A DNA stretch of 64,000 bases from Acidobacteriota bacterium (lineage in GTDB: Bacteria; Acidobacteriota; Terriglobia; Terriglobales; Acidobacteriaceae), in contig JAGWNX010000002.1 of assembly GCA_028872955.1 (NCBI GenBank), positions 1-64,000 on the forward strand. The letters are read 5' to 3'. Position numbers and translations under genes: made by a program. The notes below the pieces were generated by a model. The model worked only from the letters and a program-made list of their open reading frames with translations. It did not search any database and had not been told where the DNA came from. Positions 30,903 to 64,000 of the stretch are shown here, piece by piece (within the stretch, counting starts at the first letter, position 1; the number at the start of each line of letters is the position of its first letter).

Positions 30903-33478
30903 ATACGCTGGAATGCACCGCAGAGACAACTCTTGAATCCGCCGCCGCTCAGCATGCCATCCAGGTTGCCTGCGCGCGCATTGCACCCACATGGCCGCTT
31001 GACCAGCTGATTGCGGTCAACCCCTACTGGGGCTACATCGGTCAACCGATGGAAGCTTCGGCTCGTCAGATCGAAGGCCTCTCCGGCTCGCGCATGCTGA
31101 TGCCGCGCGCCTTCTATCGTGAGCGGTGGAGAGCCGGGGAGATAGGCGCGCCTGAGCTGCAGCAGGCACTCGAACACTCCGGGCTGCAGCTTTCCATGAC
31201 GCAGTTGCTGGCCGCGATGGACGACGAACCTACGCCCGCAGTGCGCGTGCCACTCGCTACCACCGTCGCGGATGCTCATCGCGACCTGCTGCATGGCATG
31301 TCGAACAGTGACTTTGTTGTGCATAACATTAGCCAGCATTGTGCCTCCTACTTCGACCAGATTCAGTCCTCCTGGGAGACGCAGCACAAGAGCAACCTGT
31401 ACCAGAGCTGGCTGCACCACGCCCGCACCGATCGAAGCCCACGCCTGCTGATGGGCATCTCTGGTGTGCGCCGCAACGTGGCAACGCTCCCTGACCAACC
31501 TCACCAGCTGATCCTTCAGCTGCTGGAGAAGCTGCAGATTCCGAAATCGGAGTGGGACATCTACCTGACCGCTTTGCTGATGAACATCAACGGCTGGGCC
31601 TCATGGTGTGCGCAGCAAAGCTGGCAGGCTCGTCTCAACGGTCAGCAGGACGACCACATGGTGCAGTTGCTGGCGATCCGGCTGGCGTGGGACTCGTTTG
31701 TCCTGGCCGATCTGCCCAGCGAGGTGGCGCAGACAGCATGGCAAGGGGCGTGGCAGCAGTGGCTGGCCAGCAAGCCCACCGCGCAGCACTCGATTACTGT
31801 GGACTGGGTGCTGCAGCAGGCGCTGGAGATGACCTATCAGCATGGACTATGCCGCGCGCTGCAGGGTGCCCTACCCGCCGCGACAACACCCCCGGCACAG
31901 GCTCCGGCCGTGCAGGCGGTCTTCTGCATCGACGTCCGCTCAGAGGTCTACCGTCGTGCGCTGGAGTCCTGCTCGCCCTCAGTCCAGACGCTCGGCTTCG
32001 CAGGCTTCTTCGGGCTTCCCATCCGCTACGCGCCGCTCGGCGCGCATGCAGCTCGGCCGCAGCTTCCGGGTCTGCTGGCACCCCGGCTCAGTGTCTCGGA
32101 CACGACCGGCTCCATGGATCAGGACCTCAGAGTGCAGCGCGCGCGGCAGCGTAGCCTGCGGCTGTCTTCGCTGTGGAAGGAGTTTCGTGCCTCCTCCACC
32201 TCCACGTTCACCTTTGTTGAGTCATGTGGGCTCTTCTACGCGGCACAACTGCTGCAGCAGACCCTGGGCAGGCCGACGAATGCGCACAACGATGAGCACC
32301 CAGCGCTGCGGCCACAACTCACCAGCACATGCAACAGCTCTGACTCCACACAGGACGCGCTGCATGATCTGCTGGCCGGCATCCTGACCAACATGAGCCT
32401 GACCACGGGCTTTGCACGTCTGTTGTTGCTGGTCGGCCATGGCAGTCAGACCGAGAACAATCCGCATGCTGCAGGTCTGGATTGCGGTGCCTGCGGCGGA
32501 CAAACCGGAGAGGTGAACGCGCGTGTGCTGGCAGGCCTGCTCAACCAGAGCACGGTGCGGGTGGCACTCCGCAGCCGCGGCATCGACCTGCCTGACACCA
32601 CCTGCGTTGTGGCCGGGCTGCACAACACCACTACCGACGAGGTCCGGCTGTTTGACACAGAGCTGGTGCCCGCCAGCCACACCGCAGAGCTTGCACAGCT
32701 GCGGCAATGGCTGCAGGATGCCGGTCACACGGCACGGCTGGAACGCGCCGAGGCACTCCGCATCCCGCAGAGCAAGGCCTCAACGCCTGCATCCCTGCTC
32801 CAACAATTCCGCACTCGCAGCCAGGACTGGTCGCAGGTGCGTCCCGAGTGGGGGCTGGCCAACAATGCGGCTTTCCTGATCGCTCCCCGCTCGCGCAGCC
32901 GGAGCAGATCCCTGCAGGGTCGCGTCTTTCTCCACGAGTACCGGTGCGACTTGGACCCCCATGGCACCGTGCTGGAGTCCATCATGACCGCACCCATGCT
33001 TGTCACCAACTGGATCAACATGCAGTACTACGCGTCCACGGTCGACAACCGTCTGTACGGCAGCGGCAACAAGGTGCTCCATAATGTCGTTGGCGGCCGG
33101 ATTGGCGTCTTCGAAGGCAACGGCGGCGATCTGCGCATCGGACTCCCGCTGCAATCCCTGCACGACGGAGCAACACTACGGCACACACCGCTGCGGCTGA
33201 GCGTGCTGATCGAGGCACCGCAGGCCTCCATGGACGCAGTCCTGGGCAAACACGAGGTCGTCCGACACCTGGTCCATCATGGCTGGCTCCATCTCTTCCG
33301 TATCTGCCCGAATACAGGAGCCATCACCCAGCACGTCCGGGGCTCCTGGACCCCGGTCGCAGATGCGACTCTGCCTGCATCGGGCGGTGGCCCGCAGACG
33401 GATGGGCGACCCAAGCCTAAGTTGTTGAAAGGAATGGTGGGCACAGCAGGATTCGAACCTACGACTTCCACCGTGTGA
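30899..33478 (+). CDS. dabA: DabA (DUF2309), carbonic-anhydrase-like subunit of DAB transporter
   Basis: The 859-residue soluble or peripheral subunit has the DabA zinc-site residues: Cys343 and Asp345 in 'VFCIDVRSE', His514 in 'LVGHGSQTENNP' and Cys529 in 'DCGACGGQTGEVNA'. The residues and spacing agree with the catalytic set known for Halothiobacillus DabA (C351, D353, H524, C539). It therefore likely hydrates CO2 in one direction, driven by DabB. The GTG start (AGAGGAG upstream) overlaps dabB. The frame runs into an antisense tRNA-Val gene and stops there, so the last 14 residues (ending 'GFEPTTSTV') are tRNA-derived. Confidence 0.9.
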   Translation: MNTLECTAETTLESAAAQHAIQVACARIAPTWPLDQLIAVNPYWGYIGQPMEASARQIEGLSGSRMLMPRAFYRERWRAGEIGAPELQQALEHSGLQLSMTQLLAAMDDEPTPAVRVPLATTVADAHRDLLHGMSNSDFVVHNISQHCASYFDQIQSSWETQHKSNLYQSWLHHARTDRSPRLLMGISGVRRNVATLPDQPHQLILQLLEKLQIPKSEWDIYLTALLMNINGWASWCAQQSWQARLNGQQDDHMVQLLAIRLAWDSFVLADLPSEVAQTAWQGAWQQWLASKPTAQHSITVDWVLQQALEMTYQHGLCRALQGALPAATTPPAQAPAVQAVFCIDVRSEVYRRALESCSPSVQTLGFAGFFGLPIRYAPLGAHAARPQLPGLLAPRLSVSDTTGSMDQDLRVQRARQRSLRLSSLWKEFRASSTSTFTFVESCGLFYAAQLLQQTLGRPTNAHNDEHPALRPQLTSTCNSSDSTQDALHDLLAGILTNMSLTTGFARLLLLVGHGSQTENNPHAAGLDCGACGGQTGEVNARVLAGLLNQSTVRVALRSRGIDLPDTTCVVAGLHNTTTDEVRLFDTELVPASHTAELAQLRQWLQDAGHTARLERAEALRIPQSKASTPASLLQQFRTRSQDWSQVRPEWGLANNAAFLIAPRSRSRSRSLQGRVFLHEYRCDLDPHGTVLESIMTAPMLVTNWINMQYYASTVDNRLYGSGNKVLHNVVGGRIGVFEGNGGDLRIGLPLQSLHDGATLRHTPLRLSVLIEAPQASMDAVLGKHEVVRHLVHHGWLHLFRICPNTGAITQHVRGSWTPVADATLPASGGGPQTDGRPKPKLLKGMVGTAGFEPTTSTV

Positions 33479-55621: not shown

Positions 55622-56788
55622 TTAGCCCTTGACCTCCAGCATGCGATCCAGCGCGACACGCGCCCAGTGCTTCACCTCGTCGTTGACCTGGATGCGGTTC
55701 ACCACGCGACCCTCGACAAGGTTCTCCAGCGCCCAGGCCAGGTGCTGCGGCGAGATGCGGTACATCGTCGTGCACAGGCAGCCTGATTCGTCCAGGGTGC
55801 GCACCTGCTTGCCCAGCGGCGCATAGCGTTGCGCCAGTCGATTCACCAGATGAATCTCGGTCCCCACGGCGAAGCTGGTGCCAGCCGGCGCCTGGTCAAT
55901 GTACTGACTAATGCGCTCGGTGGAGCCGGTGGCGTCGGCCTTCTGGCAGACCTCCCAGCGGCACTCCGGATGCACAATCACTTTGGTCTCCGGAGAGCTG
56001 GCACGGATGTTGTCCACGTGCTCTGGCAGAAAGCGCTGATGCACGCTGCAGTGCCCCTTCCACAGAATCACCTTCGCCGCGCGCAGCCGTTCGGGCGACA
56101 GGCCGCCGTTCAGCTGCCAGGGGTCCCACACCACCATCTGTTCGCGCGGAATACCCAGCTCATATGCGGTGTTGCGGCCCAGGTGCTGGTCCGGCAGGAA
56201 CAGAATCTTCTCCGCACGCGCAAACGCCCACTGGAAGGCAGCCGGAGCGTTGGACGACGTGCAGACCAGGCCGCCACGCTCGCCGCAGAAGGCTTTGATC
56301 GCCGCGGTCGAGTTCATGTAGGTCATCGGTACCAGGCCGCTACCCTGGGTAAGCCCGGTGCGCTCCAGCACGTCCCAGCAATCCTCAACCTGTCCAATTT
56401 CGGCCATGTCGGCCATGGAGCACCCGGCGTTCAAGTCTGGCAGAATCACCTGCTGCCAGTCGCGGCCCAGCACATCGGCAGTCTCTGCCATAAAGTGCAC
56501 GCCGCAGAACACCATGTACTTGGCGCTGGACTCGGCTGCCGCCTTGCTGAGCTTGTAGCTGTCGCCGGTGAAGTCCGCAAAGCGGATGACCTCATCCCGC
56601 TGATAGTGGTGGCCCAGCAGCACCACATCGGTGCCCAGCCGGGCGCGTGCCGCTGCAATGCGGGCGTCCATCGTGTGATCCGGTTGCACCAGGTAGTTGT
56701 CGAGCGAGCAGGTGTCTGCAACCGCTGCTGCCGAGGCGGACTCCGCCGCCGGGGTCTCCGTCGCATCCAATAAGCCGTTCAAAGTCAT
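55622..56788 (-). CDS. nadA: quinolinate synthase NadA
   Basis: The 388-residue enzyme condenses iminoaspartate with dihydroxyacetone phosphate to quinolinate, the first pyridine in NAD synthesis. Its 4Fe-4S ligands are recognisable as Cys in 'YMVFCGVHFMAE', 'GGLVCTSSNAP' and 'ESGCLCTTMYRI'; 'LLGHHYQRDEV' and 'GDSYKLSKAA' are substrate motifs. Upstream stop codons fix the ATG. A structured leader matching the NAD+-I riboswitch precedes it. nadB, which supplies iminoaspartate, lies 5 kb away on the same strand. Confidence 0.96.
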   Translation of the reverse strand: MTLNGLLDATETPAAESASAAAVADTCSLDNYLVQPDHTMDARIAAARARLGTDVVLLGHHYQRDEVIRFADFTGDSYKLSKAAAESSAKYMVFCGVHFMAETADVLGRDWQQVILPDLNAGCSMADMAEIGQVEDCWDVLERTGLTQGSGLVPMTYMNSTAAIKAFCGERGGLVCTSSNAPAAFQWAFARAEKILFLPDQHLGRNTAYELGIPREQMVVWDPWQLNGGLSPERLRAAKVILWKGHCSVHQRFLPEHVDNIRASSPETKVIVHPECRWEVCQKADATGSTERISQYIDQAPAGTSFAVGTEIHLVNRLAQRYAPLGKQVRTLDESGCLCTTMYRISPQHLAWALENLVEGRVVNRIQVNDEVKHWARVALDRMLEVKG

Positions 56789-56820
56789 CCGCCTTCAGTC
56801 TCGCCAGGTCGTTGTCGCGA

Positions 56821-56953
56821 GCCTCCTAAGAGGAGGACCCGGCGATCTTCGCCTGCGAAACGGGGTTGTTGAAAGCATCTACTGCACTGGCTGCAGCGGA
56901 CTCGCCGTACCGATCCTCAGGATCGTTACCCCGTCCGCGGGGCTGTTGCAACC
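56821..56953 (-). promoter_or_regulatory. NAD+-I (nadA-motif) riboswitch, tandem domains
   Basis: The minus-strand leader of nadA holds two similar units. Unit 1 (56889-56953) has a GGTTGCA/TGCAGCC closing stem, the conserved CAACAGCCCCG loop, a CGGAC/GTCCG stem and GGCGAGTC. Unit 2 (56821-56876) has TTTCAACAACCCCG, the same motif, and ends in a stem with CCTCCT-CTT-AGGAGG. These match the nadA RNA motif known in acidobacteria, which senses NAD+ through its adenosine part. Ligand binding would be expected to lower nadA expression. Unit 2 pairing is less certain than unit 1. Confidence 0.8.
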
Positions 56954-57144: not shown

Positions 57145-57678
57145 ATGCCGAGCTTCGGCGATAGCGCCTTTATCTTCATCCTTGCCCTGCTGCTCTTCGG
57201 TCCGAAGAAGCTGCCCGAGCTCGCCCGCCAGTTGGGCAAGCTGATGGCGGAGTTTCGCCGCGCCTCACCCGAGTTCCGCGTGCAGATGGAAGAGGAGTTG
57301 CGCCTGGCCGATCAGGCTGAGCAGCAGAAGAAGCTGGCTGCGCTGCAGGCTGCGGCCCCCCAGTCCCCGGCACTGGAGACGCCCGCAGCACCAGCCGAGG
57401 CCGCTGAGTCATCCTCTCCGCTGGCGCCTGCAGAGGAGATTGCCCTGCCTGCCGCCGAGGTCGCCGAAACCTACCCCGACCCACGCGCCAGCAACCCGCC
57501 GGCAGCCGCGCCCATCGCGATCGCGACCGAGGGCGAGTTGAGCATACTGCCGCCCGCCACCGGACTGCCCACCGCGCGTGGCAGCGCGCCTACCGATGAG
57601 ATTGCGCTGGCACAGCGGCCGGAGCGCCATACGCAAGACCCCGAATCCCCCGTTGAGGCCCCGAAGCAGCATGCCTGA
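57145..57678 (+). CDS. tatB: TatA/TatB-family translocase subunit
   Basis: The 177-residue protein starts with the Tat hydrophobic helix and hinge ('FIFILALLLFGPKKLPELAR'), then an amphipathic helix ('LGKLMAEFRRASPEF') and a long Ala/Pro/Glu-rich tail with no clear fold. The early Phe-Gly-Pro and Lys-Lys fit TatA/E/B. Its length and tail favour TatB. It overlaps tatC by 8 bp, so the pair are coexpressed. Confidence 0.85.
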   Translation: MPSFGDSAFIFILALLLFGPKKLPELARQLGKLMAEFRRASPEFRVQMEEELRLADQAEQQKKLAALQAAAPQSPALETPAAPAEAAESSSPLAPAEEIALPAAEVAETYPDPRASNPPAAAPIAIATEGELSILPPATGLPTARGSAPTDEIALAQRPERHTQDPESPVEAPKQHA

Positions 57679-58462
57679 TCTTGACCCTATCGAACGCGCA
57701 CGCGCCGCCATCAGCGACCGCGCCGAGCTGCCTGGCATGAGCCTGATGGAGCACCTGGAGGAGCTGCGCAAGCGTCTGCTGCACTCCATCTACTACCTCA
57801 TCGCCGGGTTCTTTGTGGCGTACGGCTTCCATGAGCGTCTGTACGGCATCATTCAGAAGCCGCTCGATGACCTGCACATCCCGCTCAACTTCACGCATCC
57901 GACGGATGGCCTGAACCTGTATCTGAAGACCGCCCTGCTTGGCGGTGCCATCATCGCCGCGCCGTTCATTCTGTACCAGGTCTGGCTGTTCATCTCGCCG
58001 GGCATGTACCAGCATGAGAAGCGCTTCGTCATCCCCTTCATGACCGCAACGGTTGGCCTGTTTCTGTGCGGGGCATGGTTTGGATACCACTGGGTGCTGC
58101 CCGGCGCCATCAAGGTGCTGGTGCTGGACTTCGGCAAGCGCTTCCACCCCATCCTGACGATTGAGGACTACACGCAGTTCTTCCTCGCCGTCATCCTGGG
58201 CCTCGGCATATGTTTTGAGCTGCCGATCCTCATCTTTTTTCTGGCGCTGTTCGGCATTGTGGACGCCAAGTTTCTGCTGCGTCACATTCGCTACGCCATT
58301 CTGATTATCTTCCTCGTCGCGGCGATCATTTGCCCGCTGCCAGACCCCTTCAGCATGTGCCTGTTCGCCAGCCCGATGCTGGTGCTCTACATCATCGGCG
58401 TACTGGTTGCGTACTGGGTGCACCCTAGCCGCCGCAAAGCGAAGGAGGCTAATGCCGCATGA
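57671..58462 (+). CDS. tatC: twin-arginine translocase subunit TatC
   Basis: The 263-residue membrane protein has six helices and the TatC signatures 'SLMEHLEELRKRLLHSI' and 'LKTALLGGAIIAAPFILYQVW'. TatC recognises twin-arginine signal peptides and exports folded proteins. ATG 57671 is chosen because family sequence begins there; the in-frame upstream stretch is within tatB. It overlaps the next gene by 4 bp (ATGA). Confidence 0.95.
   Translation: MPDLDPIERARAAISDRAELPGMSLMEHLEELRKRLLHSIYYLIAGFFVAYGFHERLYGIIQKPLDDLHIPLNFTHPTDGLNLYLKTALLGGAIIAAPFILYQVWLFISPGMYQHEKRFVIPFMTATVGLFLCGAWFGYHWVLPGAIKVLVLDFGKRFHPILTIEDYTQFFLAVILGLGICFELPILIFFLALFGIVDAKFLLRHIRYAILIIFLVAAIICPLPDPFSMCLFASPMLVLYIIGVLVAYWVHPSRRKAKEANAA

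Positions 58463-63431: not shown

Positions 63432-64000
<569 letters not shown>

Follow-up and report, generated by a model that had tools for sequence, protein, structure and literature searches.

NAD+-I riboswitches (the nadA motif, Rfam family RF03013) are built from tandem domains, of which domain 1 binds ADP and also NAD+, the latter via its ADP moiety, with published affinities of about 0.1 mM. Repression (gene-off) needs both domains, and the ribosome-binding site (RBS) lies in P1', the closing helix of domain 2 (PMC7297122, PMC7708056, PMC10702441). The true ligand specificity is disputed, as comparable binding of ATP has been reported (PMC10702441), and the route of the signal from domain 1 to P1' is debated, the proposals being that the domains dock or that domain 2 itself binds weakly. 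The ubiB variant of the motif, as summarized in one account (PMC7297122, citing Malkowski et al. 2019), has a similar 5' domain and an RBS in the second stem, but its domain 2 is presented there as an uninterrupted stem-loop. The NAD+-II riboswitch (pnuC motif) shares the recognition of NAD+-related ligands but has an unrelated fold and gene context. The tandem glycine riboswitch, in which the second of two homologous domains closes the expression platform, offers an analogy only, since its fold and ligand differ from those of NAD+-I.

The RNA described here was found in a window of 64,000 nucleotides of DNA from a soil acidobacterium, the whole stretch that was analyzed. It shares with NAD+-I the tandem bulged stem-loops, the ACANCCCC bulge in each domain, an RBS in the 3' strand of domain 2 P1', the position in a nadA leader and the occurrence in Acidobacteriaceae. 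It differs in a rare G at the N position of the domain 1 J1 bulge, in an AUG two codons before a conserved UUG, and in an 86-nt domain 2 that has a long P1b', as is usual in the Edaphobacter/Granulicella group. Domain 2 is bulged and the gene is nadA, in contrast to the ubiB variant, and no Rfam match to NAD+-II was detected in the window.

Tandem RF03013 matches and their gene context

RF03013 was matched twice in tandem by Rfam cmscan directly upstream of nadA, on the minus strand, as are all features of the leader and of nadA given below. Domain 1 (unit 1, 56953-56889) scored 51.5 bits (E = 3.9e-9), and domain 2 (unit 2, 56876-56791), which holds the expression platform, scored 45.4 bits (E = 2.4e-7), against a gathering score of 37.5 bits. 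These E-values were reckoned over all 4227 Rfam families and the whole 64-kb window, where the sole other gathering-level RNA match is a tRNA. The downstream gene (55622-56788) was assigned as nadA, encoding quinolinate synthase, by TIGR00550 (305.9 bits versus a cut-off of 262.9). The identity with the nadA motif proposed in the initial annotation therefore passed the covariance-model check twice, in the class-defining tandem layout and gene context. The CAACANCCCCG core said to be shared by two repeats is indeed present in both, at 56948 and 56871 on the minus strand; a third copy in the window is solitary, at 31884 on the plus strand, and there are no others. The end of the element had been set at 56821, whereas unit 2 really ends at 56791, and the last 30 nt, comprising the closing strand and the RBS, had been omitted.

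No third RF03013 match is present in the 3.48-Mb genome (207 contigs), in which candidates at E-values up to 10 reach at most 14.8 bits, revealing no second riboswitch copy above chance. nadB lies at 63410-61827 on the minus strand and, as had been noted earlier, lacks such a leader, with no Rfam match at the gene in the cmscan of the window. A divergent frame on the plus strand (63441-63998), which looks like aroB (3-dehydroquinate synthase) as judged from its sequence, opens approximately 30 bp upstream of nadB and thus leaves little room for an element of approximately 160 nt. nadC is located on another contig, without an RF03013 match. Since neither the surroundings of nadB nor the rest of the genome holds another copy, control by the leader RNA would act on nadA alone, which fits the earlier proposal. 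Divergent from nadA, at 57145-58462 on the plus strand, a TatA/B-like gene whose C-terminal tail is long precedes tatC (PF00902).

Domain 1 and its predicted fold

For comparison, 96 distinct tandem leaders were assembled from phylum genomes and from loci found by a NadA protein search, each required to contain ACANCCCC twice and a closing CUGAA. The NadA search yielded 80 named loci, mostly from Granulicella, Edaphobacter, Acidobacterium, Terriglobus and other Acidobacteriaceae. In covariance-model alignment and constrained folding, the P1 5' strand of domain 1, GGUUGCA (56953-56947), forms seven standard pairs with UGCAGCC (56895-56889). The 7-bp closing stem annotated for unit 1 is thereby retained, while the inner stem, annotated as 5 bp, comprises 6 bp in the constrained fold (GCGGAC/GUCCGC). 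Covariance-model alignment and leader comparison place the J1 bulge ACAGCCCC, which carries the ACANCCCC motif, at 56946-56939; the G at its N position is the sole case among the 96 leaders. The G residues of J2, which bear on the J1-J2 tertiary C:G contacts, are retained in the alignment (CGGCG versus CAGuG).

In the predicted ligand-free fold of the full leader, the CCCC of J1 is paired with a GGGG, and the probability of domain 1 P1 is 0.02, compared with a median of 0.96 across the 96 leaders. Together with the singular G in J1 and a unit 1 score (51.5 bits) below those of most first units of the genus, this would suit a degenerate riboswitch of NAD+-I descent, in which domain 1 folds or binds poorly with its J1 cytosines trapped by the GGGG, and P1' is constitutively closed or just a weak RBS. 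We regard such decay as distinctly unlikely. The folding model includes neither tertiary contacts nor Mg2+, so the low P1 probability is weak evidence against function. Folded in isolation, domain 1 favors the CCCC/GGGG hairpin, which replaces the canonical P1a, over the canonical fold by only 0.9 kcal/mol, a difference of less than 1 kcal/mol that provides no strong argument against function. Moreover, every ACA and CCCC residue is intact, as is the closing stem of domain 1, and the unit 1 score is well above the gathering cut-off.

Domain 2, the probable ribosome-binding site and the likely nadA start

The J1 motif ACANCCCC is kept in both domains of the 96 leaders, for which it was a selection criterion; in domain 2, the corresponding J1' bulge, ACAACCCC, was located at 56869-56862 by covariance-model alignment and leader comparison. 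Conservation extends beyond the selection criteria. The P1' 5' strand GCUUUCA (56876-56870) is invariant (96 of 96), and the 3' strand UGAAGGC (56797-56791) occurs in 87 leaders and as UGAAAGC in 8, which together account for 95 of the 96. RNAalifold on 33 domain-2 sequences of the clade recovered P1' and P1a with little two-sided covariation, because P1' is almost invariant.

The probable Shine-Dalgarno (SD) sequence is AAGGCGG (56795-56789), which we take to be complementary to the 3' end of 16S rRNA and which has a fixed spacing to a conserved start codon. Its 5' portion falls within the 3' strand of P1', and the segment UGAAGGCGG, with the RBS within the P1' 3' strand, lies directly upstream of the nadA start, supporting that AAGGCGG is masked by the closing stem of unit 2. 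According to fold energies, P1' is worth approximately 5 kcal/mol and covers the SD sequence. Its predicted pair probability without ligand is approximately 0.93, that is, mostly closed, which we count against the proposed switching.

In the 96 leaders, the commonest open-frame start candidate is a UUG or GUG located 15 nt past the initial base of UGAAGGC, a position occupied here by a UUG (56782-56780). An alternative in-frame AUG (56788-56786) precedes it by two codons; an open-frame AUG at its position is found in 1 of 96 leaders, the present one, and most close relatives have AGU there. As the AUG abuts the SD sequence, the UUG is favored, and nadA probably starts at 56782 rather than at 56788.

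The initial annotation had attributed the masking of ribosome access to a CCTCCT-AGGAGG hairpin overlapping the closing stem of unit 2. This hairpin, CCUCCU-CUU-AGGAGG (56836-56822), is the tip of P1b' in domain 2, away from the closing stem at 56876-56870/56797-56791. Its 6 bp are perfect and no other such match occurs in the window, points in favor of its being the true regulatory element, with AGGAGG as the ribosome site and CCUCCU as the anti-SD sequence. Such a role is very unlikely: the end of AGGAGG is 33 nt upstream of the AUG at 56788 and 39 nt upstream of the UUG at 56782, no ATG, GTG or TTG lies at SD distance from it, and the other leaders lack the hairpin and have different domain 2 tips. 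AGGAGG was consequently rejected as an SD sequence by distance and non-conservation, and the hairpin is best described as a variable loop tip. The closing helix P1' is retained as the masking element.

Two further features of the leader are shared with part of its relatives. The 12-nt linker AGUGCAGUAGAU (56888-56877) between the units contains GCAGU, which could form approximately 6 bp with the 3' side of domain 1 (p = 0.06 at this locus, suggestive only). GCAGU(G) is complementary to this side in most leaders of Edaphobacter/Granulicella and in some of Terriglobus, whereas short-linker genera mostly lack this feature. As a general switch, this pairing was rejected: 20 of 95 loci reached p < 0.05, nearly all of them long-linker relatives, the supporting changes are mostly one-sided and the sequences are related, and it is kept as an idea. 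In addition, the Edaphobacter/Granulicella-type domain 2 (upper part 56861-56798; leaders L003-L067) is elongated, and its internal loop, which is asymmetric, rich in purines and conserved, reads AGGCGAA...AACGACCU or GGCAA...GACGCUU. Domain 2 has been described without such a loop (PMC7297122, PMC7708056, PMC10702441), and a kink-turn, compared by eye, was rejected as not fitting it. In Edaphobacter/Granulicella, the linker GCAGUG, by pairing with domain 1 on its 3' side in a competing ligand-free hairpin, and the elongated domain 2 loop (AGGCGAA...AACGACCU) might form a lineage-specific relay of the NAD+ signal to P1', an idea that we consider rather doubtful.

Distribution among relatives and proposed control of nadA

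RF03013 exceeded the cut-off in 36 of the 396 phylum genomes surveyed, all belonging to the window's own family, Acidobacteriaceae, and each with exactly two matches, while none of 14 control genomes had a match. Eight family genomes are without a match; in six of them the nadA present differs at its N-terminus and the surrounding stretch lacks ACANCCCC, and no nadA match was found in the other two. Given these six riboswitch-less genomes (L117-L122), regulated and unregulated nadA may represent distinct lineages. Lone weak matches outside the family, in genomes G276 and G116 (27.7 bits), were taken as chance; by eye, the former is antisense within a frame of M16-peptidase-like sequence, and the latter appears antisense to a MerR-like coding region. 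For the leader itself, a chance repeat without function has a negligible probability, as no point in its support was found and two independent matches (E = 3.9e-9 and 2.4e-7), the canonical gene and order, and conservation across the family all oppose it.

The sequence, structure-model match, position, conservation, masking geometry and gene were established in this analysis, and the anatomy of the leader agrees with every sequence-level part of the published mechanism. The nadA leader RNA is almost certainly an NAD+-I (nadA) riboswitch, in which NAD+ binding would hide the RBS and turn off NadA translation. What the ligand is, that the RNA represses and that both domains are required we take from published work on relatives, from which we infer the same mode of action for this copy. 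Domain 1 would bind the ADP part of NAD+, and binding would favor the tandem in its folded state, with the domain 2 closing helix P1' (GCUUUCA/UGAAGGC) formed. The formed helix would hide AAGGCGG and switch NadA translation off when NAD+ is plentiful. At low NAD+, P1' would open and ribosomes would start, most likely at the UUG at 56782 rather than at the AUG at 56788.

In summary, the leader is a fresh instance of a described riboswitch class with its usual gene and family, a good but ordinary one. The comparison of 96 leaders puts the probable nadA start at a non-AUG codon, with start codons at a nearly fixed distance past the masking helix P1' across the leaders. Constructs for testing the nadA riboswitch should begin from the UUG codon and keep the linker and the long domain 2. 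By analogy with its relatives, this leader would extend NAD+ feedback on nadA to one more acidobacterial genome.
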